Origin: an uncultured Caulobacterales bacterium
GTDB lineage: Bacteria > Pseudomonadota > Alphaproteobacteria > Caulobacterales > Maricaulaceae
Direction of reading: 5' to 3'
Assembly (NCBI GenBank): GCA_947503715.1
Contig: CANNER010000005.1
Coordinates: 1 to 64,000, forward strand
Length of the DNA stretch: 64,000 bases
Positions within the stretch are counted from its first letter, which is position 1; each line of letters opens with the position of its first letter. A model generated the notes under the pieces. The model had not been told where the DNA came from. It did not search any database and saw only the letters and a program-made list of their open reading frames with translations. Shown piece after piece: positions 21,774-37,800 of this stretch. The position numbers and the translations under genes were made by a program.

Positions 21774-21858
21774 GCGGGTGTGGCGGAATTGGTAGACGCG
21801 CTAGATTTAGGTTCTAGTATCTTAGGATGTGAAGGTTCAAGTCCTTTCACCCGCACCA
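21774..21858 (+). tRNA. tRNA-Leu (anticodon TAG), integration target
   Basis: A class II tRNA. Acceptor strands GCGGGTG and CACCCGC pair. The D arm is GGCGGAATTGGTAGACGC, the anticodon loop carries TAG in TTTAGGT, the long variable arm follows, and the T arm contains GGTTCAAGTC. CCA is encoded. Its 3' end is repeated at 33826 and 41504, which marks it as the attachment site of the elements that follow. Confidence 0.96.
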
Positions 21859-21864
21859 CTCTCT
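21842..21864 (+). repeat. att core copy 1 (tRNA-Leu 3' end)
   Basis: CTTTCACCCGCACCA with flanking bases. The same core recurs at 33826–33848 (CTTTCACCCGCACCATTC) and, with one T for C, at 41504–41525 (CTTTTACCCGCACCATTT). Copy 1 is the reconstructed tRNA end next to the intact integrase. Confidence 0.8.
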
Positions 21865-21944
21865 AGAGGGTTCAAACGGCTTAAGCCTTTGGAACTTATA
21901 GGGAAACTTCTTGCTTCCTTTTCGTTCCTCTAGTCGCCTAAGCG

Positions 21945-21979
21945 ATTTGACCTACTTTTTGGCCTACATTTGGCCTTAC
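21945..21979 (+). promoter_or_regulatory. Putative integrase arm-type sites, left end
   Basis: TTGACCTACTTTTTGGCC followed at once by TACATTTGGCCTTAC gives two imperfect copies of a '(T)GRCCTACATTTT' unit just before the int start. Related units occur at the right ends of both elements (33733–33777 and 41411–41454). This fits integrase arm binding and autoregulation. Confidence 0.5.
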
Positions 21980-21994
21980 AAAGGAGGCGGTGAT

Positions 21995-23371
21995 ATGAGG
22001 TCTGTTCAACGCATTGACCAATATTTGCGTTTGCGAGGTGGCACTTGGTATTATGTCCGCCGCGTCCCGAAATCCCTTCGACATGTCGAAGACAGAAAAT
22101 TCATCAACCAATCTTTGCAAACGGATAGTCTAACCACGGCGCGACAGCGGCGAAATGTGTGTGCGGCGGCTGATAATCAGCGCTGGGCTGAGATAACACC
22201 TCAACGCTTTGATGAGGTACCTAGAGACGCCACCCAAAAAGATATGAACCAACGAGCTGAGGCTTACGGGTTCACCTACCGCCCTGCGGCGGACATTGCA
22301 GAGACCGCTGAACTCTCGGAACTCATTGATCGGCTGAAGGCAGTCGTCCCTAGCCAGACTCCTATGACGCCAAAGGTCCAGAGGGACACTGACGCCTTGC
22401 TAGGGTTAGCCGAGCCGACATCCACGACAATCACTCAGGCAATGGACCTATATCTCTCTGAGATCGCGCTGGATGAGCTTTCTGGTAAGTCACCAGAGCA
22501 GGTAGCCAATTACTCTAAGGTCAAGCGCCGCGCCGTCGGCAACTTCGTCCGGATGAATGGCGATATGGATATGCGCGAGATTGAACGTGAACATGGGCGT
22601 AAGGTGTATCAGCATTGGGCGTCTAAGGTTCATCCAACTGACGGCTCTAAGCCTATGAGCGGGAATAGTGCTAACCGCGATCTCGGAAACCTGCGAAAGC
22701 TCTACCGCCGTTATTTTGAACATATTGGCGAGGAGGACAGGCAGAACCCGTTTCGAAATCTACGTTTCTCTGATGCCAAGATGAGCGACGTGAAGCCTTT
22801 CTCCAGCGAATGGGTGCAAACTCGTATTTTTGAACCTAATGTTTTCGAGGGACTGAATAGGGAGGCTGCGTTGCTGTGCTTCGCGCTTATCGAAACGGGC
22901 TGCCGTCCGAGTGAGTTGAGCAACATTCTCCCTGAGAACATCTGTATTGATGCTGATGTCCCACATATTCGCATTCGGTCAACGAAGGCGCGGCAACTGA
23001 AATCAAAAGCGTCAATTCGTGATGTACCGCTCGTTGGTATAAGCCTTGAGGCTATGAAGCTCGCACGGAATGGCTTCCCGCATTATAGGGAGAGGGGATA
23101 TCTTCTTTCGCAATCTCTAACTAAGGCGTTCAAAGCCCGTAAGTTAATGCCGTCAGACAATCATCGTATCTACAGCTTCCGACATAGCTTTGAGAACCGG
23201 ATGCTCGAAGCGGGAATCGATTTTGGTTTGCGTTGCACCTTGATGGGGCATCGAAATCCACGTCCAGAATATGGCGACGGAGGCTCACTGACTTACCGCC
23301 GAGACGAGATGCTTAAGATTGTCCACCCAGTAAGTGAAGACTTGCTCAAAGGCTTTCCTTTCAAAACATAA
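21995..23371 (+). CDS. Tyrosine recombinase/integrase of element 1
   Basis: A 458-residue phage-type integrase. The N-terminus (YLRLRGGTWYYVRRVPKSLR) is the short β-rich domain common in proteobacterial island integrases. The core-binding domain runs from about 150 to 250. The catalytic domain contains the first Arg in ETGCRPSELSNI, then IRIRSTKARQLKSK, RIYSFRHSFENRM with the His-x-x-Arg pair, and LMGHRN. The nucleophile is probably the Tyr in SLTYRRDEM. ATG 21995 is chosen because AAGGAGGCGG lies eight bases upstream; an open frame extends further back to the arm repeats. It sits 136 bases after the tRNA. Confidence 0.92.
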   Translation: MRSVQRIDQYLRLRGGTWYYVRRVPKSLRHVEDRKFINQSLQTDSLTTARQRRNVCAAADNQRWAEITPQRFDEVPRDATQKDMNQRAEAYGFTYRPAADIAETAELSELIDRLKAVVPSQTPMTPKVQRDTDALLGLAEPTSTTITQAMDLYLSEIALDELSGKSPEQVANYSKVKRRAVGNFVRMNGDMDMREIEREHGRKVYQHWASKVHPTDGSKPMSGNSANRDLGNLRKLYRRYFEHIGEEDRQNPFRNLRFSDAKMSDVKPFSSEWVQTRIFEPNVFEGLNREAALLCFALIETGCRPSELSNILPENICIDADVPHIRIRSTKARQLKSKASIRDVPLVGISLEAMKLARNGFPHYRERGYLLSQSLTKAFKARKLMPSDNHRIYSFRHSFENRMLEAGIDFGLRCTLMGHRNPRPEYGDGGSLTYRRDEMLKIVHPVSEDLLKGFPFKT

Positions 23372-23916: not shown

Positions 23917-24728
23917 ATGAAAATTTATAAATATCCGCGCACGCGGCATATTGAGGGCTCACGCCTGCAATATGGCGATAGCCGGGATGATCAAGCCTTT
24001 GAGAACCTCAAAGGTAAAAGGCTGATCATCGAAGAAAAAGTCGATGGTGCAAATTGCGCCCTCTCTTTCGAGGCGGGGAAACTCCGTCTGCAAAGCCGAG
24101 GTCATTTTTGACGGGTGGCACTAGGGAGCGCCATTTTGATCTGTTCAAATCTTGGACTGCCTGTCACGCGGAGGCGTTTCACGCGGCTCTGGGCGACCGA
24201 TTTATTGTGTATGGCGAGTGGCTCTACGCGAAACATACCGTATTCTACGATGCGTTGCAGCACTATTTTATGGAGTTTGACGTGTTGGACCAGAAGACGG
24301 GGTTGTTTCTGTCAACGGATCGCCGCCGCGATTTGCTGGCAGGTTTACCCGTCATGCCGGTCCCGGTGTTGAAAGACGGAGCGTTTTCCAGCTTGGAGGA
24401 GGTCACGGATTTAGTGCGACCTTCGCTTTATAAAACGACTGAGTGGCGCGCGGCGTTGGAAAATGCGGCCGAACAGTCTGGTAGTCGCCCAGACTTTGTT
24501 GAAAGGCAAACCGAAGACAGTGACTTGTCCGAAGGCTTATATCTTAAGCTTGAAGATGAAGATCAGGTCATCGGTCGTTTTAAATATGTCCGCGCAGATT
24601 TTGTGCAGGCTATTATGGATGGTGACAGCCATTGGCACGAGCGACCAATTTTGCCAAATATTTTGGCAGAAGGAGTTGATATTTTCGCTTCCCACCTTGG
24701 ATTGAAGGGAGCCTATGATGAAACATAA
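23917..24728 (+). pseudogene. ATP-dependent RNA ligase, frameshifted
   Basis: The gene reads as an RNA ligase of the nucleotidyltransferase superfamily split over two frames. Frame one (23917–24111) has motif I, IIEEKVDGAN, with the AMP-accepting Lys at about 41, and ends at a TGA in RGHF-stop. The frame one base back continues LTGGTRERHFDLFKSW, then YGEWLYAKHTVFYDAL (motif III region), EGLYLKLEDED (motif IV) and GRFKYVRADF (motif V). One extra T in the run of five at 24105–24109 would restore a protein of about 270 residues. All five motifs are kept, so this is a recent lesion, a base error or a frameshift signal. Its end overlaps the HD-Pnk start by 14 bases. Confidence 0.8.
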
Positions 24729-25866
24729 TCAACTCACATATGACGCCTTGCTGTCCTTGGTGCCTAAATCACCTGTGTGGTCAATTGATTGGTCACGTAT
24801 CTGGGGTTTATGGCCAGAGTTGGCTGCTTTGGACAGCTGTCCGCAAGATCCAATCCATCATGCCGAAGGGAATGTTGGTCTGCATACTCGCATGGTCACT
24901 GAAGCTTTGGTAGGATTGGAGGAGTGGCGGCGGTTGGATGCCAAGGACCGGAGCTTGTTATTCTGGTCGGCAATCTTGCACGACATCGGCAAACCGGCGA
25001 CCACGCGCGAGGAGGACGGCGGGCGTATTTCTGCCCGTAATCATGCGCGTGTCGGTACGCAGATGGTGCGGCAACTGCTGTGGGAGATTGGCGCGCCTTT
25101 CGCATGGCGAGAAGCCCTATGCGGAATCGTGTCGGAGCATTTGGTGCCGTTTTGGCTGATCGAAAAAAACAACGTCCAGCGCCAAGCGATTTTGACGTCG
25201 TGGCGCTGTCGTCCCGACCATCTCTGCCTGCATGCGCAGGCGGATACGCTCGGGCGTTTCTGTGCGGACCGACAAGGTGTTTTGGATAACATCGACCTCG
25301 CGCGGGAGGCATTTAAAGAGGCGAGGTGCTTCAAAGCTCCCTTCGCCTTTGCCAATGCCGCCAGTCGTGTTTCCTACTTTGAAAAAGTTGATCGTGATCC
25401 CGCCTACGTGGAATTCGAAGATTTCCGCTGCCGTGTGACGGTTATGTCTGGCCTACCTGGGGCGGGAAAGGACACCTGGATTAAAGCCAATTGTCCTAAC
25501 TTACCGATGGTTAGTTTGGATCAAATCCGTCTTGAATTAGGAGCGCCAAATACGGGGAATCAAGGTCGTGTTATTCAAGCTGCAAGGGAACGAGCGCGTG
25601 AATATTTGAGAGCTGGTCAGAACTTTGTTTGGAACGCCACGAATATCAGTCGTCAGCTCAGAGAGAAAAGTTTGAAACTTTTGCGTGACTATAACGCAGA
25701 AGTAGAACTCATCTATCTTGAGCCTAAGGTCGAAACGTTATTTTTGCAAAACCAAAACCGAGACAGCGCTATTCCGGCGAAAGCCTTGAGTGGTTTGATA
25801 AGGAAATTGGAGCCTCCGCAAGACTGGGAAGCCCACAATGTCGAGCGCGTAATCGCTGCATATTAA
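24715..25866 (+). CDS. HD-Pnk: HD-domain phosphoesterase fused to polynucleotide 5'-kinase
   Basis: A 383-residue RNA end-healing enzyme. The N-terminal half is an HD domain: HTRMVTEAL, FWSAILHDIGKPATT with the metal-binding His-Asp at about 90, and RNHARVGTQM. In described HD-Pnk proteins this part removes 2',3'-cyclic or 3' phosphates. The C-terminal half is a P-loop kinase with GLPGAGKDTW at about 245, MVSLDQIRLELG and VWNATNISRQLREKS, as in T4-type 5'-OH kinases. Together they would give the 3'-OH and 5'-phosphate ends needed by the ligase gene it overlaps. An alternative ATG is one codon later. Confidence 0.88.
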   Translation: MMKHNQLTYDALLSLVPKSPVWSIDWSRIWGLWPELAALDSCPQDPIHHAEGNVGLHTRMVTEALVGLEEWRRLDAKDRSLLFWSAILHDIGKPATTREEDGGRISARNHARVGTQMVRQLLWEIGAPFAWREALCGIVSEHLVPFWLIEKNNVQRQAILTSWRCRPDHLCLHAQADTLGRFCADRQGVLDNIDLAREAFKEARCFKAPFAFANAASRVSYFEKVDRDPAYVEFEDFRCRVTVMSGLPGAGKDTWIKANCPNLPMVSLDQIRLELGAPNTGNQGRVIQAARERAREYLRAGQNFVWNATNISRQLREKSLKLLRDYNAEVELIYLEPKVETLFLQNQNRDSAIPAKALSGLIRKLEPPQDWEAHNVERVIAAY

Positions 25867-26300: not shown

Positions 26301-27350
26301 TTACTTCAGGACTTCAACTTTCCAACATTTTCGTCCCAATTGGGTCATCTTAACTTCAACATCGAGGAACTGTTTTATGATGTCGATGTTTGTTCGTGTG
26401 TGCTGAGAGATGTCTGTTGTCGTGAAAACACCGCCCCCAAACAACGCCATTGGCAAGAGAAGTTGGTCCGCTAAATGCTCTCCGACGGCTGTACTTATCT
26501 TTCCAGAGCCATCCTTTGCAGGAAGGTATTTCTGAGCTTGATGCACGACTTTTTTGGCAACGGCTTCAGCGCGTACGCCATGTTCGCCCAAACCAATAAA
26601 GACCTCAGTGACGTTCTCGTGCTCGAGAAAAAGTGTCACCGCATTGCCAGGACCAGGGCCTTCGGCATGGATGATTTCGCCTTGTTCCTCCCTCAAGTTA
26701 AACGCCTTCAGAAGCGTTGTGAGTTCGCGGTTCGCAATGTCTCTTTTCAAGTTTGCGACAACAGCCACAACCTTCTCACCTGTCCGTTCGCCTCTGTCTT
26801 CCAAGGCTAACGCATGGGTTTCTGTGGTCGGCTTAACTGCTATGCGAATAGCTCCGCCGCCCGCAGGATAGAAGCCATAAGCCTCTAATTCAGCGGATGC
26901 ACGGCCACCCATTTTCTGAAATTGAGGAAGAAAAGCCTGATCAAGAAAGTCAAATGTTGGAGCCCATTGGTTATGGGTTCCGCCAGAAATTTTGACGCTC
27001 GAGGCCGTGTCTGCATGTGCCAAGATTGGGAGAAGTGTCTGCGCGACAAGGTTTGTTGCACCGGCAGATCCAATAGCGAAGTCGTATTCTCCGCCTTTGA
27101 TTTTTCCAGGATGAAAGGCGATTTCGGACGAGCCTAATTCTGCGCCTTCCATTGTCGCATCGCAAATTTCTGCTGCAGCTTTGAACGCCGTCAAATGCTG
27201 CCGAAACAAGCCAGGTTTCTTCCGCCGTCCACGGACATTCTCAATCCGAACGGGTTTACCTGTGATGGCGGATAGGGAGAGGGACGTACGCAGAACTTGT
27301 CCACCGCCTTCACCTTCGCTGCCGTCAACTATGATTTCACTTTTAGTCAT
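26301..27350 (-). CDS. rtcA: RNA 3'-terminal phosphate cyclase RtcA
   Basis: A 349-residue enzyme that converts RNA 3'-phosphates (or 2'-phosphates) to 2',3'-cyclic phosphates through an enzyme-AMP intermediate. Family features are DGSEGEGGGQVLRTSLSLS at the N-terminus, RGRRKKPGLFRQHLTA, the glycine-rich GFYPAGGGAIRI and the C-terminal GEHLADQLLLPMALFGGG, whose His is the adenylylation site. ATG 27350 is preferred to the ATG at 27365, because it overlaps the stop of the upstream small frame as TAATG. It is the last gene of the minus-strand rsr–rtc block. Confidence 0.94.
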   Translation of the reverse strand: MTKSEIIVDGSEGEGGGQVLRTSLSLSAITGKPVRIENVRGRRKKPGLFRQHLTAFKAAAEICDATMEGAELGSSEIAFHPGKIKGGEYDFAIGSAGATNLVAQTLLPILAHADTASSVKISGGTHNQWAPTFDFLDQAFLPQFQKMGGRASAELEAYGFYPAGGGAIRIAVKPTTETHALALEDRGERTGEKVVAVVANLKRDIANRELTTLLKAFNLREEQGEIIHAEGPGPGNAVTLFLEHENVTEVFIGLGEHGVRAEAVAKKVVHQAQKYLPAKDGSGKISTAVGEHLADQLLLPMALFGGGVFTTTDISQHTRTNIDIIKQFLDVEVKMTQLGRKCWKVEVLK

Positions 27351-27495
27351 TATGCCTGTGTCCATCTTGTAGTGTCAGCGCTAGGGACGAAAACCTTTTC
27401 ATAATAGCACTCGCTAAATTCGTAACCAATATCCACGCCACAAATGCACTTACGGTTGGGTTTGTCATGGCCTGGGACTACGCCGCAACAGCCAT
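27350..27495 (-). pseudogene. Small Cys-rich (zinc-ribbon-like) gene with a one-base lesion
   Basis: Between the unknown gene at 27506 and rtcA, one minus-strand frame reads GYGCCGVVPGHDKPNRK, then CICGVDIGYEFSECYYEK and VFVPSADTTRWTQA, and stops by TAATG overlap with rtcA. It has CC and CxC pairs, as in a small zinc ribbon. Its only good start, ATG at 27495 after AGGAGAAAGG, lies in another frame and stops after five codons. The span of 146 bases is one short of a whole number of codons. The gene is therefore frameshifted, or uses a start I cannot see. Function unknown. Confidence 0.5.
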
Positions 27496-27505
27496 AACCT
27501 TTCTC

Positions 27506-27817
27506 CTAATTCTGGTTTCTCAAAATATGATCTTTGATATCATCTAGGTTAAGCCAATATTGGTGAGGCAGTTCGTCAGTTTGTAAATGAAGAAAATGTT
27601 GAACACTGACACTCGCTTTAAAGGCAACTCCCTTTGGGATAAATGCGCCTTCTGTTGAGGAATTCGGAATAATATCGCCCTTTGCAAATGTTCCCTTAAA
27701 GGGAACCAGGCGTCCGTTTACTTTACCAAATTCAACTGAGGCGTCAGCTTCATCATAGTGGCGTAAAGTGCCCGTGACTGGTTTCCCGCAACCTTTACAA
27801 ATTAGTATTACATTCAT
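27506..27817 (-). CDS. Hypothetical protein between rtcB and rtcA
   Basis: A 103-residue protein. It begins MNVILICKGCGKPVTGTLRHYDE, with a single CxxC at residues 8–11, then a mixed β-rich middle (RLVPFKGTFAKGDIIPNSS) and a C-terminus HQYWLNLDDIKDHILRNQ. An upstream ATG at 27850 would add 11 residues; 27817 was chosen because the CxxC-near-N-terminus layout resembles metal-binding small proteins, but the choice is open. I do not recognise a family. Its place inside the rtc operon suggests a role with RtcB or RtcA. Confidence 0.7.
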   Translation of the reverse strand: MNVILICKGCGKPVTGTLRHYDEADASVEFGKVNGRLVPFKGTFAKGDIIPNSSTEGAFIPKGVAFKASVSVQHFLHLQTDELPHQYWLNLDDIKDHILRNQN

Positions 27818-27856
27818 AGGAACTCCAATGTGGGCGCTAAAAGCGCCCACTTGTAA

Positions 27857-29089
27857 TCATCCTTTTACACACACGACTTGGCGAAGTGTATGCACGATCT
27901 CGACGAGATCTTTTTGGGCTTCCATCACGTCGTCGATTGATTTGTAAGCCGATGGTGTTTCATCCAAAACGCCAATATCTTTACGACACTCGACATCTTT
28001 GACGGCCTCCAAATGCTCTTCCATCGACACGCTTTTTTTGGCTTCGGTTCGAGACATCACCCGTCCAGCCCCATGGGAGCAAGAGCAGAATGAGTCCTCA
28101 TTACCGAGGCCGCGCACAATGTAAGACCGCGTCCCCATAGAGCCCGGAATAATACCCATATCACCTTTGCGAGCACGGACTGAGCCCTTACGCGTGACGA
28201 GGATATTCTCCCCGAAATGGTTCTCGCGGCTGACATAGTTATGGTGACAATTCACGGCCTCTACTTCCGCGTCAAACGGTACTGACAAGACAGCCCGCGC
28301 GGCGGCAATAACGTTCTTCATCATAACAGTCCGGTTGGCGAAAGCGAAGTCCTGAGCCCATTCCACGGCCTCCACATAATCATCGAAATGATCTGTGCCT
28401 TCCGGGAAATAGGCCAAATCCTTGTCAGGGATATTGATGAACCATTGCTCCATGTCTTTCTTGGCAAGTTCGATAAAGTAACGCCCGATCCGATTGCCAA
28501 CACCCCGAGATCCGGTGTGAAGCATGAACCAAACACGGTCCTCTTGATCCAAGCAGACTTCAATGAAGTGATTACCTGTTCCAAGCGTTCCGAGGTGTCG
28601 TAAGTTATTGCTCTGGGCAATGACCTTATGTTTCTCGGTGATGGTATCGAAACGACCCTTCAAGCCAGACCATGCGACTTCGGATGTTGCAGGCACATCA
28701 TGCCAAGAGCCTTTATCACGACGACGACCAGACGTGCGGCCATGGGGCACAGCACGTTCAATCGCAGAGCGTAAATGCCCGAGGCTGTCTGGCAAATCGG
28801 TAGCCGTCAAAGTTGTTCGACATGCCATCATTCCGCAACCAATATCCACGCCAACAGCGGCTGGGATAATAGCATTCTTTGTCGGGATCACAGAGCCTAC
28901 CGTCGCGCCAATACCTACGTGAACGTCTGGCATGACGGCGACATGTTTGAAGATAAAGGGCATCTGCGCAGCGCGTAGCAATTGCTCACGCGCCCGATCA
29001 TCAATGGGAACGCCGCGCGTCCACATTTTTACGGGCACGCCGCCTTCGCCTGCCATTACGTCGAAACCATGTTGTGTTTCGTGTTCCAT
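27857..29089 (-). CDS. rtcB: RNA-splicing ligase RtcB
   Basis: A 410-residue GTP-dependent, Mn-dependent ligase that joins 2',3'-cyclic-phosphate or 3'-phosphate RNA ends to 5'-OH ends. Motifs seen are MPDVHVGIGATVGSVIP, GVDIGCGMMACRTTL with the metal-binding Asp and Cys, GTGNHFIEV, MLHTGSRGVGNRIG, NCHHNYVSRE, IIPGSMGTRSYIV and CSHGAGRVMSR with the guanylylated His. The ATG at 29089 follows GAGGAGGA; the longer in-frame start at 29146 would run into the tRNA-Tyr region. It follows five tRNA genes on the same strand. Confidence 0.95.
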   Translation of the reverse strand: MEHETQHGFDVMAGEGGVPVKMWTRGVPIDDRAREQLLRAAQMPFIFKHVAVMPDVHVGIGATVGSVIPTKNAIIPAAVGVDIGCGMMACRTTLTATDLPDSLGHLRSAIERAVPHGRTSGRRRDKGSWHDVPATSEVAWSGLKGRFDTITEKHKVIAQSNNLRHLGTLGTGNHFIEVCLDQEDRVWFMLHTGSRGVGNRIGRYFIELAKKDMEQWFINIPDKDLAYFPEGTDHFDDYVEAVEWAQDFAFANRTVMMKNVIAAARAVLSVPFDAEVEAVNCHHNYVSRENHFGENILVTRKGSVRARKGDMGIIPGSMGTRSYIVRGLGNEDSFCSCSHGAGRVMSRTEAKKSVSMEEHLEAVKDVECRKDIGVLDETPSAYKSIDDVMEAQKDLVEIVHTLRQVVCVKG

Positions 29090-29119: not shown

Positions 29120-29205
29120 TGGTGTGTGAGGTTGGATTCGAACCAACGTACCCTTTCGGGGGCAGTTTTACAGACTGCCTGCTTTGGCCGCTTGCATACT
29201 CACAC
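29120..29205 (-). tRNA. tRNA-Tyr (anticodon GTA), accessory
   Basis: Class II fold on the minus strand. Acceptor strands GTGTGAG and CTCACAC pair fully. The anticodon stem is GCAGT/ACTGC around CTGTAAA, the variable arm is CCCCGAAAGGG, and the T arm is TTGGTTCGAATCCAA. CCA is encoded. It is the last of five tandem tRNAs before rtcB. Confidence 0.93.
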
Positions 29206-29228
29206 ATGTTTGACCTTTCGGTCTTTAT

Positions 29229-29306
29229 TGGTCGGGGCAGCAGGATTTGAACCTGCGGCATCTCGGCTCCAAACCGAGAACTCTGACCGGACTGAGCTAC
29301 ACCCCG
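29229..29306 (-). tRNA. tRNA-Pro (anticodon TGG), accessory
   Basis: Acceptor strands CGGGGTG and TGCCCCG pair. The D arm is GCTCAGTCCGGTCAGAGT. The anticodon stem CTCGG/CCGAG holds TTTGGAG with TGG. The T arm is GCAGGTTCAAATCCTGC, and CCA is encoded at 29229–29231. The fold appears functional. Confidence 0.93.
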
Positions 29307-29314
29307 TTTTATTC

Positions 29315-29390
29315 TGGCTCACGTGACAGGACTCGAACCTGTAACTACCGCATTAACAGTGCAGCTCCCCTACCAGCAGGGACCCACGTG
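29315..29390 (-). tRNA. tRNA-Asn (anticodon GTT), accessory
   Basis: Acceptor strands CACGTGG and TCACGTG pair. The anticodon stem CTGCA/TGCGG contains two G·T-type pairs and holds CTGTTAA with GTT. The T arm is ACAGGTTCGAGTCCTGT. The D arm is unusual (TCCCTGCTGGTAGGGGA), lacking the usual AGYY start of the loop, so it is a divergent tRNA-Asn. CCA is encoded. Confidence 0.88.
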
Positions 29391-29395
29391 AAGAT

Positions 29396-29472
29396 TGGTA
29401 CTAACTAGGGGACTTGAACCCGCTATCTCAGGAGCCACAATCCTGCGTTCGAGCCAGTTGAACTAAGTTAGC
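29396..29472 (-). tRNA. tRNA-His (anticodon GTG), accessory
   Basis: Acceptor strands GCTAACT and AGTTAGT pair, with G·T at the first position. The anticodon stem CAGGA/TCCTG surrounds TTGTGGC. The T arm is CGGGTTCAAGTCCCC. The discriminator is A and no G precedes position 1, so the usual G-1:C73 identity pair is absent. That loss is known from alphaproteobacteria and agrees with the host class. CCA is encoded. Confidence 0.9.
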
Positions 29473-29481
29473 AATTTAATT

Positions 29482-29555
29482 TGGTTGATCCCCCAGGATT
29501 CGAACCTAGATTTACGCATCCAAAATGCGTCGTCCTACCATTAGACTAGGGATCA
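29482..29555 (-). tRNA. tRNA-Gln (anticodon TTG), accessory
   Basis: Acceptor strands TGATCCC and GGGATCA pair. The D arm is AGTCTAATGGTAGGAC. The anticodon stem ACGCA/TGCGT holds TTTTGGA with TTG. The T arm is CTAGGTTCGAATCCTGG. CCA is encoded. It is the first canonical tRNA after the Y-RNA array. Confidence 0.92.
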
Positions 29556-29562
29556 AAATGTA

Positions 29563-29693
29563 TGGGCGACAAGTAAGATGTGAAACATTCGTGCTCTACC
29601 AGACTGAGCTACGGGATGGCTTTCGCCACTCCGGTAGGATTCGAACCCACGACCCCGATCGTTGAAAGATGTAGTTCCACAGGCATTCGCCCA
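29563..29693 (-). ncRNA. Y-RNA-like gene 5: Ro stem joined at the anticodon arm of a permuted tRNA mimic
   Basis: Minus-strand transcript of about 131 bases. Ends TGGGCGA and TCGCCCA pair. The 5' strand carries CGAATGCC and the 3' strand ACTTGTCG, like the conserved bulged Ro60-binding helix of Y RNAs. Stem 2 is TGTGGAA/TTTCACA, then TACAT. The inner part reads tRNA 3' half first (GTGGGTTCGAATCCTAC T arm), an acceptor-like helix CGGAGTGGC/GCCATCCCG capped by GAAA, then a complete D arm GCTCAGTCTGGTAGAGC. The former anticodon arm leads into the Ro stem. One A·C mismatch interrupts the acceptor helix. Confidence 0.8.
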
Positions 29694-29724
29694 TTCAATT
29701 TTTAAAGGCTCAATCCAACAGGTC

Positions 29725-29858
29725 GGCGACAAGTGGGATGTGAAACACTCACCATGCTCTACTCGCTGAGCTACTGAGGGGTCCGAGCAAACGGTGCCTC
29801 TCAGACGGGATTCGAACCCGCGACCTTGGTATCCAATGTAGTTTCACAGGCATTCGCC
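29725..29858 (-). ncRNA. Y-RNA-like gene 4: Ro stem joined at the anticodon arm of a permuted tRNA mimic
   Basis: About 134 bases on the minus strand. The outer stem is GGCGA/TCGCC with CGAATGCC and ACTTGTCG, stem 2 is TGTGAAAC/GTTTCACA, then TACATT. The tRNA-like part fits standard geometry: anticodon stem TGGTG/TACCA, five-base variable loop AGGTC, T arm GCGGGTTCGAATCCCGT, acceptor CTGAGAG/CCCTCAG with one mismatch, then a cap closed by CCG/CGG, and D arm GCTCAGCGAGTAGAGC. Read circularly it is a tRNA whose termini are joined and whose anticodon loop is opened to the Ro-binding stem. Confidence 0.82.
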
Positions 29859-29873
29859 AGTGTTGTGACTGAA

Positions 29874-30004
29874 TGACGACAAGTTTATTAGAGACGTTTC
29901 TTCCGCCACATCATTTCTGATGGAAGGACTTGAACCTTCACTTCCTCTTTCAAGGAACCGCTTTCGCGGCGCGTCTACCAATGTAGTCTCTAAGGCATTC
30001 GTCA
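29874..30004 (-). ncRNA. Y-RNA-like gene 3: Ro stem inserted in the D-loop of a permuted tRNA-Leu-like mimic
   Basis: About 131 bases. The outer stem is TGACGA/TCGTCA, stem 2 is TTAGAGAC/GTCTCTAA, with CGAATGCC, TACATT and AACTTGTCG conserved. The inner sequence is TTGGTAGACGC, a hairpin CCGC–GAAA–GCGG in the anticodon-arm place, a variable arm TTCCT/AGGAA, a T arm GAAGGTTCAAGTCCTTC, acceptor strands CATCA/TGATG capped by GAAA, then TGGCGGAA. Joining TGGCGGAA to TTGGTAGACGC recreates a tRNA-Leu D arm, so the Ro stem sits in the D-loop, not the anticodon loop. Confidence 0.8.
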
Positions 30005-30019
30005 AAATTCATGCCAAGC

Positions 30020-30124
30020 CATGACAACAAGTTTTGTGAAGATCCGCAGGATTTGAACCTGCTTTTACAACGGGCCGAAGTGGCGTTGCTTTCAACCAAT
30101 GTAATCTTCACGGCATTTGCCATG
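30020..30124 (-). ncRNA. Y-RNA-like gene 2: reduced tRNA mimic (T arm kept)
   Basis: About 105 bases. The outer stem CATGGCAA/TTGTCATG and stem 2 GTGAAGAT/ATCTTCAC are paired, with AAATGCC, TACATT and AACTTGT in the conserved places. The inner part has a hairpin CAACG…CGTTG with an inner CC/GG, and a good T arm GCAGGTTCAAATCCTGC running directly into stem 2. No D arm or acceptor stem is obvious. It looks like a three-way junction retaining only the T arm. Confidence 0.7.
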
Positions 30125-30145
30125 TGAATGAAGAAAGAAAGTGGT

Positions 30146-30207
30146 CGCGACAAGAAATGCAGAGACGGTTTTACATTTAACAGATGTAGTCTCCTGCAGC
30201 ATTCGCG
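30146..30207 (-). ncRNA. Y-RNA-like gene 1: minimal, no tRNA module
   Basis: Only about 62 bases, the first after rsr. The outer stem is CGCGA/TCGCG, stem 2 is TGCAGGAGAC against GTCTCTGCA with one bulged G, and CGAATGC, TACATC and CTTGTCG are conserved. The inner part is a simple hairpin TACAT–CTGTTAA–ATGTA. It has the Ro-binding module without an effector module. Confidence 0.68.
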
Positions 30208-30236: not shown

Positions 30237-31826
30237 TTAATTTATACTCCTTAATTCAATTGTCTCAATCTCTCCCACCCAGTGGTTGGGACCGAGGTTT
30301 CCTTTGGCAAACCGGCCAATGACATCAAAGACGCGGTCGGAAAATCCGCCGATGTTCAAGATGTCTGGTCGGTTGACCGCTTGTGTTGTTCTATTCGGCG
30401 TAAGGTCGATACAGACCATCCGCGCGTTCGGGTTGCGGGTTTTCATCCGTTCCCATTCACGCATTAGGGCTGTCGAACGACCGCCTTGAATATCCGCCCA
30501 GCTTTCATTGTCTGAAACTAGGATCAACAAATCGACTTTGGCGCGTTGACGGTTGAGATGAACCAAAGGCGCACTGCAGTTTGTTCCGCCACCGCCAATT
30601 GATGCGAGCTTTTCAGCATTCGTCAAAACATCGGCACGTCGATCCAATTTCAAATCAGACACGCAGACTTCAAATGGCAATACTTGGGTCGTTTCGCTGT
30701 TCCGAAGGACAACTGACGACATCAAGCCCGCAACATCGATGCACCGTACCGCAGATGTAGACCCTGCGCGATGACCCGTAACGGAGGACCATTTCATCGA
30801 TCCCGATACATCCGGACAGACAACGACATTGCCCGCAAAGCTAGGCACGTTTTCAAGTGCAATCTCCAAGGCTTCTTTCAAAGCCTCTTTAATTTCAGTC
30901 GGCAAATCTGACTTCTGGCTTGCCATATAGGCCGCCATAATCTGATATGGGAACACTTTGGCGCGGCGAATTGCATCGACATCAGTCAAGCGTTTCGCAA
31001 TCGCCTTCACAGCGCCTCGGCGTTTAAATACGCCGTGACGTGCAAATGTGTTCAGGTTCATTCGAACCATATGCCAACCGCCTCGCTGAGCGATTTGCGT
31101 CCAATGATCGGTCGTCAAATTTAACGACGTCAACATCTGAAACGGTACATCGGGTGCGATCTTGCCGCCACGTTCCTTAAAAACTTCAAAGTCTTTGATA
31201 GGCTGAGGCAGTTTTGAAAAATCGTACTCGCGACCAATGAAGTATCCAAACAGAGCATCACGTTGCTTCGTCAAAGGCTTTGGATGAACCATCTTGATGA
31301 CATCGGCGAGCGACGGATCATTACCGACACAAGCGTGGATGAGATCGCGATCGCTCGCATTAATAAGCCAGTTTTGAACAAGGCGTTTTGGTGCCGAACC
31401 GAGAGATTTACGGCCCACTATACCAGAGCGCATGATTTGAACGAAGGTGCGAAGCATCTTGCCGTTATCAATGACTTTGTGAAAAACAGGCGCAACGAGA
31501 TCAGGGCGCATTTCGCCTTTACCGTTAGGCACTGTCAAACAGGCCAACAAGAGCGCTGGCATGTCTTTCATAAAACCGCTCTGGCGAGCATAGATTGCCG
31601 TCTTGGCGACAAATTCAGGCTCAACTTTATTCGCAAGGCCTAAGACCTCATCAAGTTGATCCTTTGCAGTCGCATAGAATGTTCCGTTCAAGCAGCCTGT
31701 TACAGCTAATTGAGCCAAAGCTTCGCGTGGGTCCAACATGAAGGCGTTGCCACCTGCAGCGTTTAGACCGTTCACCGCTGGCAGTAACTTACCGCGCATC
31801 GATGCAAACATTGTTTTATTCGCCAT
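30237..31826 (-). CDS. rsr: Ro60 orthologue (TROVE-domain RNA-binding protein)
   Basis: A 529-residue ring-shaped RNA-binding protein. The N-terminal two-thirds is the HEAT-like TROVE module (NGLNAAGGNAFMLDPREALAQLAVTGCLNGTFY, ARQSGFMKDMPALLLACL). From about residue 330 a von Willebrand A domain carries the MIDAS motif DVSGSM, then GGGGTNCSAPL and LVSDNESW. Such proteins hold Y RNAs on the outside and misfolded or cut RNA ends in the ring, and can pass them to exonucleases. The ATG at 31826 has GGAGAAAG upstream; an in-frame start at 31901 would cover a strong leader hairpin. Y-RNA genes follow directly, as in known rsr operons. Confidence 0.93.
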   Translation of the reverse strand: MANKTMFASMRGKLLPAVNGLNAAGGNAFMLDPREALAQLAVTGCLNGTFYATAKDQLDEVLGLANKVEPEFVAKTAIYARQSGFMKDMPALLLACLTVPNGKGEMRPDLVAPVFHKVIDNGKMLRTFVQIMRSGIVGRKSLGSAPKRLVQNWLINASDRDLIHACVGNDPSLADVIKMVHPKPLTKQRDALFGYFIGREYDFSKLPQPIKDFEVFKERGGKIAPDVPFQMLTSLNLTTDHWTQIAQRGGWHMVRMNLNTFARHGVFKRRGAVKAIAKRLTDVDAIRRAKVFPYQIMAAYMASQKSDLPTEIKEALKEALEIALENVPSFAGNVVVCPDVSGSMKWSSVTGHRAGSTSAVRCIDVAGLMSSVVLRNSETTQVLPFEVCVSDLKLDRRADVLTNAEKLASIGGGGTNCSAPLVHLNRQRAKVDLLILVSDNESWADIQGGRSTALMREWERMKTRNPNARMVCIDLTPNRTTQAVNRPDILNIGGFSDRVFDVIGRFAKGNLGPNHWVGEIETIELRSIN

Positions 31827-31844
31827 TTTCTTTCTCCAGTCATT

Positions 31845-31876
31845 GGGCGGCTCTGCTAGTGTCAGCAGAGCCGCCC
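31845..31876 (-). promoter_or_regulatory. Strong hairpin in the rsr leader
   Basis: GGGCGGCTCTGCT and AGCAGAGCCGCCC form a perfect 13-base-pair stem with a six-base loop. On the rsr transcript it ends 18 bases before the ATG, beside the ribosome-binding site GGAGAAAG. It could block 5' decay or modulate translation. It has no T-run of a terminator. Confidence 0.6.
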
Positions 31877-32019
31877 GGATTTCGCTGTTGACTGCAAACA
31901 TCTATTTGTTCGCTTATTCCCGTCATTCAACGAGGATGAAAATGCGCAGGGAGATAGATGTTAGAAAATGAAAATTTGATGGAAAGCTATAAGTTACTGT
32001 AATCAATCATTTCTTTTTC

Positions 32020-32105: not shown

Positions 32106-33692
32106 ATGAAGAAGAATGTTGCCATCGGATTCCTCGGAATCAACTTAGATAATGGTAAAGGTGCCGGGCGTTGGGAGCGCTGGAGGCCTACAGTTGATCT
32201 TTGCCGTCAAGATGATTTCATCATCCATCGCTTTGAACTGCTCGTTGATCCCAAACACATGGCTATAGCAGAGCAGGTGGAAGCAGATATCGCGCTGGTC
32301 TCACCGAACACGACGGTCGTCATCAATGAAATGGAGGTCCATAACCCTTGGGATTTAGAGGAGGTCTATGAAGCGCTCTTCGATTTCACCGACCTTTATC
32401 GATTCAATACTCAAGAGGAAGATTACCTGCTTCACATTACGACAGGCACGCATGTTGCGCAGATTTGTCTCTTCCTTCTAAATGAAGCGAGATATCTACC
32501 TGGGAAAATACTTCAACTCTCTCCGCCGCGCAAGAAAGATAAGACAGGACCAGGTAAGGTCTCCGTTATCGACCTGGATCTTTCAAAATATGATCGTCTA
32601 GCAGATCGGTTTGAGACAGAGCGTCAAACGGATACGTCATTTTTGAAGTCTGGAATTCCAACACGTAACCTAGCCTTTAACACGATGATTGACGAAATCG
32701 AACAAGTTGCCATTCGGACGACCAACCCAGTCTTGATTTCCGGTCCGACAGGTGCAGGCAAGTCTCATCTCGCGAAACGCATTTTCGAGCTCAAAAAACG
32801 CCGACATCAAGTTGAGGGTGACTTCATAAGCGTGAACTGCGCGACCCTTCGCGGGGACACGGCCATGTCGACCCTGTTCGGTCACAAGCGCGGGGCTTAT
32901 GCTGGAGCCATCAAAGATAGAGCAGGTTTGTTGCGCATGGCGCATAAGGGTCTCATTTTCTTAGACGAGATTGAAGCGTTAGGTTTGGACGAACAAGCCA
33001 TGATCCTTAGCGCACTCGAAGATCAAAAATTCTATCCAGTTGGCGGGGACCAAGAAGTCAAAAGTGAGTTCCAGCTTATCGCGGGCACTACAACGGATTT
33101 GGTTGAGCTTGTTGCGAAGGGTGAGTTTCGTGAAGACTTACTAGCGCGGATAAATATGTGGAGCTACACCCTTCCTGGCCTGAAAGACCGTCGTGAGGAC
33201 ATCGAGCCCAATTTGAACTATGAGCTCACCAAGTTCAGCTCTCAAAATAATCGTAAGATGACCCTAAATGCCGAAGCAAGAAAAGCATATCTGAACTACG
33301 CGTTGTCGTCCGAAGCTAGATGGGCGGCTAATTTCCGCGATCTCGCGGCGTCGGTAACCCGCCTTTGTACATTTGCAGATGGATCACGCATTCAGCTGGA
33401 AAGCGTCGAGCGTGAAATTGAACGATTGCAAAAAGGATGGCGACTGAAGTCCGGAAACTCCACCGAGGAGACTTTGCTGTCCGTGATGAGTCAAACTCAG
33501 CTAAGCGTGATTGATCCGTTTGATCGTCCATCATTGGCCAATACCATCATCGTTTGTCGTCAATCCGACAGTCTCAGTGATGCTGGACGAAAACTGTTCG
33601 CCATATCTCGAGAGAATAGAAAATCTAAGAACGACGCGGACCGCCTTAAAAAGTATCTCGCGAAATATGATGTGAGTTGGGCGGATATTTAA
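32106..33692 (+). CDS. rtcR: RtcR: CARF-domain AAA+ transcriptional activator of the rtc operon
   Basis: A 528-residue regulator. Residues about 1–185 are the RtcR-type CARF sensor (IGFLGINLDNGKG, HITTGTHVAQICLFLL, ILQLSPPRK), thought to sense RNA fragments or cyclic-phosphate ends. The AAA+ domain has Walker A GPTGAGKSH at about 213, Walker B LIFLDEIEAL and arginine region LLARINMWSYTLPGL. The σ54-contact loop reads GAYAGA in place of the usual GAFTGA. The C-terminus ends NDADRLKKYLAKYDVSW, as in RtcR. It is divergent from rsr and the last gene before the element's right end. Confidence 0.93.
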   Translation: MKKNVAIGFLGINLDNGKGAGRWERWRPTVDLCRQDDFIIHRFELLVDPKHMAIAEQVEADIALVSPNTTVVINEMEVHNPWDLEEVYEALFDFTDLYRFNTQEEDYLLHITTGTHVAQICLFLLNEARYLPGKILQLSPPRKKDKTGPGKVSVIDLDLSKYDRLADRFETERQTDTSFLKSGIPTRNLAFNTMIDEIEQVAIRTTNPVLISGPTGAGKSHLAKRIFELKKRRHQVEGDFISVNCATLRGDTAMSTLFGHKRGAYAGAIKDRAGLLRMAHKGLIFLDEIEALGLDEQAMILSALEDQKFYPVGGDQEVKSEFQLIAGTTTDLVELVAKGEFREDLLARINMWSYTLPGLKDRREDIEPNLNYELTKFSSQNNRKMTLNAEARKAYLNYALSSEARWAANFRDLAASVTRLCTFADGSRIQLESVEREIERLQKGWRLKSGNSTEETLLSVMSQTQLSVIDPFDRPSLANTIIVCRQSDSLSDAGRKLFAISRENRKSKNDADRLKKYLAKYDVSWADI

Positions 33693-33848: not shown

Positions 33849-34676
33849 TAAGGGTTCACTTATTGCCCTGCAGTAGATTTAGCGGATAAGGCTGACCTCT
33901 CAGATCTTATTGACCGCTTAAAAGATGTAGTGCCCAGCAAAACACCTATAACACTTGAGGTTCAACAAGACGCTGATGCATTCGCATGAGCGGCAACATA
34001 GATATGCGCGAGATCGGATGTGAGCGTGGGCGTAAGGTATAGCAGCGTTGGGCCGCAAGGTTCATCCGACCAGCGGTTCCGAGCCGCTGAGCGGCAATAG
34101 TGCGAACCGCGACTTGGGGAATCTATGGAAGCTTTATCGCCGTTACTTTGAACACATTGGTGAAGGGGACAGGCCGAATCCGTTTCATAATTTCCGGTAT
34201 CAGATGTAAAATTAGGGAACACAAAACCATTCTCCAGCGATTGTGTGCAGACTCGCATTTTTGAGCCAAATGTCCTGAAGGGTTTATACCGAGAGGCCGC
34301 TTTGCTTTGCGCTTATGGAGACCGGCTGCCGTCCAGGCGAGCTGAGCAATATTCCTCCTGAGAATATTTGCCTCGATTCAGATATACCGCATATTCGCAT
34401 TCGGTCGACAAAAGAGCGAAAGCTCAAATCTAAGGAGTTGATCCGCAACATTCCGTTTGTGGCCCTCAGTCTGGAAGTTATGAAACTGACCCAGAATGGA
34501 TTTTCGCATTATAGTGAGAGAGGCTACCTGCTTTCACAATCGCTGATGAAGGCGTTCAAGGCCCGCAAACTTATGCCGTCAGACAATCATCGAATTTATA
34601 GTTTCCGCCATAGCTTTGAGAGCCGGATGCGAGAAGCAGGAATAGACTTTGGTTTGCGCTGCACATCGTTGTAAGT
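33849..34676 (+). pseudogene. Integrase pseudogene of element 2
   Basis: Fragments in several frames match the intact integrase closely: residues near DLSDLIDRLKDVVPS, the GNSANRDLGNL region with RRYFEHIGE, then METGCRPGELSNIPPENICLDSDIPHIRIRSTKERKLKSK through RIYSFRHSFESRMREAGIDFGLRCT. The N-terminal third is missing; the junction is GGGTTCA, present both beside att and inside the gene. The last part with the nucleophile Tyr is missing; that junction is at GCAC, joining the gene to the repeat block. Internal frameshifts and a stop are also present. Confidence 0.85.
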
Positions 34677-34806: not shown

Positions 34807-37800
34807 TTATGGACTTCCAACACGCTCTAATACGCTATCATAGTTATCCCATAACTGAGATAGCGGGACGAGAATAACGGTCCATCCAAAGGCTTCGAGA
34901 ATATCGGCACGGGCCGTGTATGTCTCCACAACATCATTGCTGCGATATCTTTCGGGCGTGTCAAAAAGAAGTGCGGTGCGGGCCGAACCGTTAGGTCCGG
35001 ATAACGCCAGATCGACCGTGAAAAACGATAAGCCAACATTGCGATCTACCTGCCAACCGTATTGTTTGAGATCGGCCTCTAGCTTATCAAAAGTAGCGTC
35101 AGTAGGTTTAGATGTGTCGCGATCGGGTCCTCTCTGCATGGCAATTCGAGAAAGCGCAGAATGGGCCGCCTCTGTCTGCCCGACTGAAAGCGCTTCTGCA
35201 TAACGAAGGTATGTTTTTAGCGCATTGGCACCGAAATTATAGTCATTGGTTATGGCTGAACTTTGGATAGAAGAGACAACCATCATTGCGGTTTTTGACC
35301 GTGAGAAGATAACGTTCAAACGCTTCTCTCCGCCTGCCTTATTGATAGGGCCAAAATTCATCCGCATTTTACCTGAGGCAGCGGGCGCGTAACATATTGA
35401 GAGTATGATTATATCACGTTCGTCGCCCTGTACATTCTCCAAATTCTTGACAAATAGACCGATATATTCCCCGTCTTCTTCTCGCTCTCGTTCGGCTTCC
35501 AAGAGGTTTTCGAAGGCCGTATCTGTACTCGCTAAATTGTCCAAGGCTCGGTCTATCTCGCCCTGTTGAGCTTCAGAGAAGGCGACAATACCAAAGGTTC
35601 TTCTGGTCCCGGCTTTGGCTTGATCTGTCAGAAGAGTCCTTAACAGGGTCGCTATATATCGCGCCTCATTTGCATTCTTTCGATCCGTATAAACACCTGA
35701 AGGGATGTGGTGAAAACTGATGGGGCGAGCGAGGATATCTTCGGAGGATACGGGTAGAATTTCAACGTCCTCGACGACGATGGGTGCGCGTTTTTCTGAG
35801 CGTCTGACGGATGGAATTGTGAGCAGACGAGTGCCGTAAAACGCAGCATTGGAAAAACCGATAAGCTCTTCAGATCTTGAGCGATAATGCCAACCCAGCA
35901 AGGTCGAGGGAAGATGTTCTGCGGCTAATGTAAGAAAGCTGTCTTGGTTGAGTTCGAAATCAACATCGACATCTTCCGCAGCTTCATCAAAGTCTTCTTC
36001 TCCGCCGCTAGAATTAAAGAAATTGGTAGGCGGGAGCTGTTTCTCATCGCCGACAATAATGGCTTGCGGAGCGCGCAACACGGTTGGGATCGCGTCCTCG
36101 ACAGGTATTTGCGACGCTTCATCAAAGATAACTACATCGAACAGCCTTCCTGATAATGGTAATACATCTGCAACGGAAAGGGGGCTCATCATCCAAATAG
36201 GTTTAATAGTCGGAAGTACGGAACCTGCAGGGCCTGCGAGCAACTCCCGAGGTGATCGATAGGCGCGTGTTTTGCCGAACTCATGTTCAAGAGCACGTAG
36301 GCCCTTGTTGACGGCTGATTTACGCTTACGTTCCATTTGAGACAGGTCGCGATCAGGTGTATTTTTCAAAGCTGTCAACGCGTGGAAGCTGTCAATCGAA
36401 CGGCGTAAAATAAGCTGTGCGTTCAAGCTATAGAGCTGTGTTTGATGGCCTCTAATTCGTTCACGGATATCATTTAATGCGTCTGAATCGACATTTAGGA
36501 GGCCCGATGCGGCCGTGAGGCTACGCTCCACCGTATCAGCCATGATTGCGGTTTCTAATTGCTCAGGCTCCAGCTCGCTTTCGCGCAGCGTCCGCCAAAT
36601 TGAACGTGGCGCATTTTTAAGAGCTAGGGCTGCGGGTTGAATATCTCGCAAGCGGCGATTTGCTTCGGAGAGATCTGTCAGCTCTGTTGCGAGCTGCTGA
36701 ACCGGTATATTATCTACACCTTCAAAGCTGAGTTTTAGGCGCTTATCTGTCTCACCCAAGGTCTCATAAAGTGCGCTTAAGTCTTTGATTCCGTCTCTTG
36801 TTGAGGTCGGGTTACTTGAAACAACATTCCAAAGTGGAAGCGCAGCATTACCTTCTGCTGGTGTGAGGGAGTCGCGTTCGTGTAGAAGTCCCGACAATTG
36901 ATCTGCGCTCTCATATCCAAATCGTCGCGTCAGCTGCCTTGACGCGTTTTCTAAAACTTCTACGGCTTCGTGTTCCAGTTTTAGATCCGTCAATAAATCG
37001 CGGATCCGCGGTTTTACAGAGAGGCTGCCTTCATCTATAGAGCTCAAGACAAGCTTTTTTGTTCTTCTCCAATCGCCAGACAGGAAAGCTAAAATCTTAC
37101 CTTCTTTTTGCTCGGCCAAAGCCAAAGCGTTTCGCGTGTCGCGCGGCGATAACTTATTGGTCCATATTTTAGTATCTTTGTGCGCCTGGCTGACTTTGTG
37201 CTTTAAGTCCTCTAGTTCGCGCAGTCCGTTTATCCATTGCAGAAATTCTGAACTACCGGGCTTAAATACACCTTCCATGCCGACCTCAAAACAGGGGCTT
37301 AGACGATGGGCGAGCGTAATCTGTGCGCGCATCTCATCAAGACTTGCCACATCAATCTCAGCAGTCCTCATAAGTTTCGCTGACCCGTCTGAAAGGCGAG
37401 ACACTAAAGGCAAAAGTGCCTGCGCTTCATTTGGGAGAGTTTCAGACATATCATTGGCGAACCAAACGCTGGTGCGGATCAACCGCTCCGATGCTTTTGA
37501 AAACACCTCTTCACCCGTCAGTCGACGCACTGCAGCAGAAAGCCCTCGAGCCGCAACGGCGTGTTTTTGCCAGTCTGATAAATCAGGAAAGGCGATATCC
37601 AGAGGTAAAGACTTCGCATTATTAAGGGCCAGGGTTTCTGCCAGAATATCATGTAAAGGTGCGTCGGTCCCCAGCGCTGATTTGGAAAGTGTATCGGTTA
37701 GGCGATGCAAATCAGACAAAGCTGTCCTTACGCCTTCAATTTGCCAAGATCGTGATTTTTCTATTTCGGACAGCGTTGGAACAGTTTTGTCTTTTGTCCA

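Follow-up and report, generated by a model that had tools for sequence, protein, structure and literature searches.

Introduction

Bacterial Y RNAs, the permuted order of the tRNA-like module in YrlA, and operons that join rsr to rtcBA are already known. Passages in two reports describe a bacterial Y RNA as circularly permuted relative to tRNA (PMC11472068) and state that YrlA is a substrate of TruB and DusA (PMC8394870). We focus here on an operon of this kind in 64,000 nucleotides of an uncultured Caulobacterales bacterium (assembly GCA_947503715.1, contig CANNER010000005.1, positions 1 to 64,000; hereafter the window). Five predicted Y RNA genes, U1 to U5, follow its Ro60 gene, rsr, and one of them, U3, appears to carry a complete tRNA cloverleaf that is opened in the D-loop and inserted into the Y stem. 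In the parts of the literature that our search covered, the main YrlA work lying outside them, there is no description of D-loop-opened Y RNAs or of tRNA genes inside an rsr-rtcB operon; the class of complete, D-loop-opened cloverleaves may nevertheless have been described earlier.

A predicted cloverleaf opened in the D-loop

Read 5' to 3' inside its Y stem, U3 begins with the 3' half of a D arm including G18G19 and continues through the anticodon stem, a variable-arm hairpin and the T arm; a self-closed acceptor stem, U8-G9 and the 5' half of the D arm follow. The acceptor stem is capped by a 4-nucleotide loop, and the minimum-energy fold holds all five tRNA helices (Table 1). With a tetraloop on its anticodon arm and an acceptor stem closed on itself, U3 should be neither charged nor decoding. 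Compared with tRNA-Leu(UAG), the module scores 76 when the match starts in the D-loop and wraps, 64 when it is unwrapped, and 44.5 at best in five shuffles. We considered whether U3 might be a mis-read YrlA and rejected this, since the two strands of its D stem sit at opposite ends of the module and the 46 units described below parse into an order unlike that of YrlA; U3 itself runs from the D 3' strand through the anticodon arm, variable arm, T arm and acceptor to the D 5' strand, which is not the YrlA order.

The comparison was carried to 87 loci, namely the window, 6 further loci and 80 loci of the genome_contigs set (the 86 related loci are these without the window; L numbers are our handles for loci). 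Sixteen full D-loop-opened cloverleaves were chosen by eye from the unit listings, which is a selection step; an automatic parser returned 12 units as 'Dopen+AC' and 22 as 'Dopen-noAC', overlooking several clear cases and mislabelling others. Eight of the 16 are Leu-like with a D stem of 3 base pairs, and eight are class I-like with a D stem of 4 base pairs and a variable loop of 4-5 nucleotides, dimensions that are the same as in real tRNAs.

First of all, in a dimer test all 16 modules gained from wrapping (by 4.5-14), a gain that is weaker evidence than it appears because the dimer score can never fall below that of a single tRNA; five U2-type modules gained 0. In the same test, 15 of the 16 beat the best of five shuffles, and 15 of the 16 start at tRNA index 10-17. 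Second, 25 of the 29 pairs in the 16-unit alignment are changed on both sides, with a covariation of 0.589 compared with 0.220 in shuffled and at most 0.161 in slid alignments. A covariance model was the check that the earlier, sequence-only reading of this DNA had proposed. Our model R1, built on the 16 units with the anticodon and variable arms left unpaired, does recover Ro60 neighbours in other genomes: over the 87 loci it gives 46 matches of at least 63 bits in 40 loci, 30 of them outside the training set (U3, itself a training member, scores 109.8 bits). Every one of the 46 is found on the same strand as Ro60, at a distance of 67-1511 bases 3' of the gene, and in 44 the D stem runs to 3-4 consecutive pairs.

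Third, two features that are outside the pairs of R1 point the same way. A hairpin of at least 5 base pairs stands at the anticodon-arm position, beside the D 3' strand, in 41 of the 46 units, compared with a mean of 12.9 and a maximum of 21 in 200 shuffles. At the tertiary Levitt pair 15-48, 28 units have G-C and 15 have A-U, so that 43 of 46 are consistent; shuffles gave a mean of 24.9 and a maximum of 35, and none of 2000 reached the observed count. The signal holds when the effect of kinship is lessened: with the units clustered at 80% identity, 29 of 32 clusters, represented by one unit each, are consistent (shuffles: mean 16.4, maximum 27, 0 of 5000 reaching the observed value). U8, A14 and G18G19 are each kept in 45 of the 46 units, but they are columns of R1 and so are not independent evidence. 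Judged by comparative sequence analysis, the D-loop-opened units form a widespread, covarying class of predicted Y RNAs beside Ro60.

Distribution and specificity of the class

When 398 genomes of the phylum were surveyed, 7 had an R1 match of at least 80 bits; all 7 are among the 10 genomes with Ro60, and each match lies close to the 3' side of that gene, on its strand. One more Ro60 genome scored 53.6 bits. There were 0 matches at an E-value of 1e-10 in the 388 genomes lacking Ro60. Among 385 genomes of the class, R1 scored at least 83 bits in 3, again all among the 7 with Ro60, and the 378 others gave three weak matches of at most 37.6 bits. Both surveys used stricter filters, which lose weak matches, and some of the surveyed genomes (G000, G252, possibly others) are training loci. 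Real tRNA genes score at most 29.4 bits (L091, L072). A phage origin of the trait was considered and rejected, the best score in 42 viral Ro60 loci being 50.0 bits.

Going by record titles, the carriers are mainly Alpha- and Betaproteobacteria; the exceptions by title are a Desulfuromonas metagenome-assembled genome (MAG; L037), an unplaced proteobacterium (L071) and L045, whose record bears the name Mycobacterium sp. KBS0706. Variovorax supplies 12 of the 80 genome_contigs loci. Of the 40 loci that have a D-loop-opened unit, the window included, 36 also contain a unit starting with the T arm; the two kinds thus usually coexist.

At gathering thresholds, Rfam reported 7 YrlA in 10 loci (L010, L015-L017, L026, L061, L077, L085, L090 and L094); none of the 15 D-loop-opened units in those loci was called YrlA, and no Y RNA was called in the window. 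Likewise, 0 of the 16 hand-chosen units were reported as YrlA at the gathering threshold in the 11 sources scanned.

Two further kinds of unit were seen. Variovorax and its relatives have a reduced D-loop-opened Y RNA with D stem, T arm and acceptor hairpin, in which the anticodon arm is absent. The other kind, a long Y RNA, combines a T-arm-like hairpin with a distinct 3' part and agrees with neither tRNA topology. In addition, L031:2057-2191, L047:8080-8218 and L072:7866-7985 are possible false tRNA annotations.

The array of Y RNAs

Units were read from the sequence and from a scan for paired Y RNA ends on both strands of the 87 loci, which found 244 units, compared with 9 in mononucleotide shuffles, and included all five in the window. 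The sequence-only reading had described five minus-strand units with shared strands and two stems, and this was borne out, the block matching its interval to within a few bases. The compensated changes that it listed in the outer and second stems are all present as well, one of the pairs in the GGCAA/TTGTC stem of U2 being G-U. Its Y RNA-like identification is supported by the adjoining Ro60/Rsr gene and by two paired Ro-binding stem strands of CGAATG/CTTGTCG type. The outer helix is paired in 98.0% of cells in the 16-unit alignment, 97.5% in the 46-unit alignment and 100% in that of the U2 type; each predicted Y RNA keeps both putative Ro-binding strands. Five is, on the other hand, not the unusually large number that the same reading took it for, and we reject it as exceptional: units on the Ro60 strand occur in 74 of the 80 genome_contigs loci, and 14 of these 74 hold at least five by a strict scan that counts any position in the locus, overlooks some units and may include a few false ones.

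That reading also overlooked that four of the five units, all except U1, carry tRNA-derived modules, and that these differ in topology. The modules of U4 and U5 run from T arm to acceptor hairpin to D arm, as in a tRNA circularly opened at the anticodon. Fold z-scores were taken against dinucleotide shuffles (Table 1), and for U4 and U5 single-sequence energy alone is weak. Rfam models were run with the threshold off; the gathering scores are 69 for YrlA and 97 for YrlB, and no unit of the window reaches them, U4 and U5 falling narrowly short. Equivalents of U1 were found in L015 and L017 by the scan and in L016 by eye.

U2 shares with U3 the 5' junction TACATTGG. Its UUCG-capped hairpin occupies the place of the anticodon arm and shows compensatory changes, its T arm reaches the 3' strand of the Y stem within 0-3 bases, and the acceptor hairpin is absent. 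U2 may thus be a D-loop-opened module minus its acceptor, or a tRNA in normal order that uses the Y stem as acceptor stem. This type occurs in 5 loci (the window, L015-L017 and Massilia glaciei L089); as a widespread class it was rejected, because its model, R2, matched its five training members alone at an E-value of 1e-9.

The operon and its tRNA genes

On the minus strand, rsr is followed by the five Y RNA units (29562-30207), five intact tRNA genes (29120-29555), rtcB, an open reading frame of 114 amino acids and rtcA, with rtcR divergent from rsr, which is the layout of an rsr-yrl-rtcBA operon. The order rtcR, rsr, Y RNAs, tRNAs, rtcB, rtcA is kept in two Caulobacterales MAGs (L015, L016) and in Hellea balneolensis (L017). 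By sequence, the closest solved relative of the Ro60 protein is Deinococcus radiodurans Rsr (2nvo, E-value 9.2e-21), and RtcB is present in 72 of the 86 related loci. The presence of RtcR suggests that the operon is inducible.

The tRNA genes stand directly downstream of the Y RNAs and were likewise overlooked by the first reading. All five duplicate an isoacceptor that has one other distinct sequence elsewhere in the genome (47 tRNA hits; 45 distinct sequences by ARAGORN), and their anticodons are those of the core copies. They are 65-75% identical to their own core copies compared with 88-100% to the operon copies in L015-L017, a pattern that points to a separate, conserved tRNA lineage. On these sequence comparisons, the five are diverged second copies of isoacceptors that retain a core copy. 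The L017 operon holds Asn and Pro tRNAs only. Elsewhere, tRNA genes were found 3' of Ro60 in L026 (Asn), L046 (Pro), L075 and L083 (Lys and Asn in each) and L092 (Pro, Asn and Gln). Upstream of Ro60 and on the same strand, ARAGORN finds 32 tRNA genes in an Acidobacteriota MAG (L072), and six in a Polyangia locus (L082). The genome of the window itself has two adjacent tRNA hits at C1:755870-756008, one of them a diverged 71-nucleotide tRNA-Leu(tag) lacking CCA.

Several neighbouring features were also recorded. The 114-amino-acid frame has no match in the 86 related loci. Near rtcA lies a second RNA-repair pair: the gene for an RNA ligase (PF09414) overlaps that for an HD-domain protein, which also has a kinase-like AAA_33 domain. 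No such pair was found in the 86 related loci, whose flanks are of limited length. A phage-type integrase follows tRNA-Leu(TAG), and a short frame about 11 kb off resembles a stretch of the same integrase, as read from the translations; the repair region sits between the two, as in a genomic island. A 1731-amino-acid DUF4011/helicase/nuclease protein matches the candidate defence family PDC-S37. In the search of the defence library, six of eight proteins had no match, the other two being this protein and RtcR.

Table 1. Features of the window and, in the last two rows, of related loci (positions in the window unless a locus is named)
Feature	Position	Strand	Basis or remark
U1, short Y RNA without tRNA module (YrlB-like)	30146-30207	-	fold z -2.58; YrlB 24.5 bits
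U2, Y RNA with reduced tRNA module	30020-30124	-	D-loop GG strand, UUCG-capped hairpin, T arm; fold z -2.80; YrlA 28.4 bits
U3, Y RNA with complete class II (Leu-like) cloverleaf	29874-30004	-	minimum-energy fold, model R1; fold z -2.80; YrlA 36.2 bits
U3 D-stem 3' strand	29971-29973	-	pairs with 29904-29906 at the module's other end
U3 anticodon-arm stem, GAAA tetraloop, no anticodon	29957-29970	-	parse, minimum-energy fold
U3 T arm	29923-29939	-	parse
U3 acceptor stem closed as hairpin	29909-29922	-	parse
U3 D-stem 5' strand	29904-29906	-	parse
U4, YrlA order	29724-29859	-	fold z -1.60; YrlA 65.8 bits; dimer test
U5, YrlA order	29562-29694	-	fold z -1.25; YrlA 65.9 bits; dimer test
tRNA-Gln(TTG), second copy	29482-29555	-	66% identical to core copy
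tRNA-His(GTG), second copy	29396-29472	-	65% identical to core copy
tRNA-Asn(GTT), second copy	29315-29391	-	75% identical to core copy
tRNA-Pro(TGG), second copy	29229-29306	-	74% identical to core copy
tRNA-Tyr(GTA), second copy	29120-29205	-	72% identical to core copy
rsr, Ro60 orthologue	30237-31901	-	vWA_Ro60 and TROVE domains
rtcB, RNA ligase	27857-29089	-	ATG start; open frame from 29146
Frame of 114 amino acids between rtcB and rtcA	27506-27850	-	no Pfam match
rtcA, RNA 3'-phosphate cyclase	26301-27365	-	Pfam
rtcR, CARF/sigma-54 activator	32106-33692	+	divergent from rsr; matches RtcR-type models
tRNA-Leu(TAG)	21774-21858	+	best match of the U3 module among the genome's 45 distinct ARAGORN tRNAs
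tRNA-Leu(TAG), then phage-type integrase	21774-23371	+
RNA ligase and HD/AAA_33 protein	24054-25866	+
Short integrase-like frame	34315-34674	+
DUF4011/helicase/nuclease protein	34807-40002	-	PDC-S37
Reduced D-loop-opened Y RNA	L030, L035, L036, L038, L052, L065, L070, L077:4423, L078:7599
Further long Y RNA	L057:6873-7023, L074/L085:8058-8209, L075:8101-8255, L083:7920-8068, L092:7998-8145		Ruegeria, Thalassococcus, Shimia, Rhodobacteraceae

Proposed mechanism and alternative explanations

We regard the anatomy of the operon and of its modules as very probable; the functions that we assign to them are more conditional. It is somewhat probable that this is an inducible tRNA-damage operon, in which repair and backup tRNAs are combined with Ro60 adaptors that present the tRNA shape in various ways. 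The Y stem would dock on Ro60, and the tRNA-shaped module would serve as an adaptor that recruits, or occupies, proteins recognizing the tRNA body, a mechanism to which we give slightly less than an even chance. The elbow contacts are kept and the anticodon and free acceptor end are gone; the tRNA body thus seems to be what matters. Attachment through the anticodon side, as in the YrlA order, or through the D-loop, as in U3, would turn different faces of the L-shape outward, and one Ro60 could in this way be fitted with several handles for class I and class II tRNAs. RtcAB would repair and the operon tRNAs replace, so that, together with the adaptors, damaged tRNAs could be sorted, mended and replaced after nuclease attack. 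In the fullest form of this proposal, which we put forward only tentatively, Ro60 has a set of adaptors grafted at the anticodon side, the D-loop and perhaps the acceptor side (U2), each exposing another face of the L; the cell would in this way send damaged tRNAs of class I and of class II to separate handlers, and ligase, cyclase and replacement tRNAs would all come from the one transcript.

Several observations weigh against this proposal or the class on which it builds. Within the class, the L047 module did not beat the best of its five shuffles in the dimer test, and the D stem has just 2 consecutive pairs in L058 and L037. The alignment of all 46 units (A5), in which 27 of 28 modelled pairs covary (0.712 compared with 0.232 shuffled), was fitted to R1 and leans towards it, and nine of the units fall in one Variovorax/Acidovorax cluster. 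Scores continue below the 63-bit line without a gap, and R1 separates incompletely: most other Y RNAs score below 60.1 bits, the value shared by the next two matches, L027, which resembles the L022/L025 type, and L083, which has YrlA order. ARAGORN, covering all 40 loci, calls two of the 46 units tRNAs (L031 as Gly(tcc), L047 as Leu(cag)), and the Y RNA of the Acidobacteriota MAG (L072:7866-7985, 49.7 bits) seems to retain a GAT anticodon loop and is called tRNA-Ile; absence of the anticodon is thus not universal. No unit of at least 63 bits occurs in 47 of the 87 Ro60 loci or in the 42 viral loci, which means that Ro60 function does not depend on the class. The attachment of U2 is ambiguous, as both topologies fit. 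With regard to induction, the typed sigma-54 consensus (-24/-12, at most one mismatch) has no match within the window, and a weaker scoring of four upstream regions revealed nothing in common. Finally, all of the support is from sequence and computation.

Of the alternatives, the one that survives best, although we consider it unlikely, is that the tRNA-shaped Y RNAs are decoys, uncleavable and unchargeable competitors that soak up nucleases or toxins attacking tRNAs, while cut tRNAs are mended by RtcAB and replaced from the operon set. A competitive-inhibitor role has been suggested for Salmonella YrlA, in a passage of PMC7790460, and the occurrence of both class I-like and class II-like mimics would suit such a role. 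An anticodon nuclease would, however, be expected to need the anticodon loop, which by our parse is missing from every one of the 46 units (ARAGORN disagreeing for two), and a decoy has no need of the Ro-binding stem, yet its outer helix is almost always paired.

Somewhat less likely still, the module might be a bulky lid gating the Ro60 ring, for which any stable tRNA fold would serve, its topology drifting without function. The wide variation in topology, including reduced forms and modules that have no tRNA arms, agrees with this. The tertiary pair 15-48 is nevertheless kept by paired changes in the D-loop-opened class, beyond the needs of bulk.

It is very improbable that the D-loop- and anticodon-opened forms are permuted tRNA genes whose products, as in Cyanidioschyzon, are processed and rejoined to give working tRNAs. 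Permuted algal tRNAs do have similar break points, at 20/21 in the D-loop and 37/38 in the anticodon loop (PMC3978253, in part), an RNA ligase is encoded in the operon, and the anticodon loop apparently retained in L072 would fit; but a 7-nucleotide anticodon loop with U33 was found in 0 of 46 units by a parse that favours long stems (ARAGORN differs for L031 and L047), and the acceptor stem of U3 is shut by its short loop. Equally improbable are functionless, decayed tRNA insertions in Y RNA genes: U3 does still resemble the tRNA-Leu(UAG) encoded 8 kb away, but all five modelled helices covary across many loci and strong R1 matches are confined to Ro60 genomes.

A second, differently wired mimic, with the entire cloverleaf and its tertiary contacts but neither anticodon nor free acceptor end, would make the purpose of tRNA mimicry in Y RNAs testable, with the shape of the tRNA body as the selected trait, and the two attachments found in one cell would allow their partners to be compared. 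Furthermore, Ro60 loci would come to be seen as carrying mimics of graded completeness that escape the present RNA families, and the spare tRNAs in the operon suggest that repair and replacement jointly meet tRNA damage.

Comparison with known systems

Among the closest known systems is YrlA (RF02553) of the Salmonella rsr-yrlBA-rtcBA operon, which has the same Ro-binding stems, adjacency to rsr, tRNA-derived module and RtcR-linked repair operon, and whose module order is shared by U4 and U5. In U3 and its class, on the other hand, the opening is in the D-loop and none of the five tRNA helices is lost, and the operon in the window holds five Y RNAs together with five tRNA genes. U1 is short and lacks a tRNA module like YrlB (RF02565), but its score is far below the gathering threshold of that family. 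Breaks of the same kinds, in the D-loop and the anticodon loop, are found according to part of PMC3978253 in the circularly permuted tRNA genes of Thermofilum and of red and green algae; those genes yield working tRNAs, whereas the units described here lack the anticodon and their product is attached to a Ro-binding stem.

For the tRNA genes, the trn operon of Anabaena offers a parallel, since it also keeps spare tRNA genes apart from the housekeeping set; as portrayed in sections of PMC10272220, it is silent until translational stress, and the regulator that represses it also represses rtcB. It differs in comprising 26 plasmid-borne tRNAs controlled by the repressor TrcR, with rtcB a separate chromosomal gene, and the terms 'Ro60' and 'Y RNA' each occur 0 times in the main text of that report. 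Phage tRNA sets are similar in that their extra tRNAs are proposed, in part of PMC10264068, to counter tRNA depletion, whereas the five described here sit in a bacterial repair operon.

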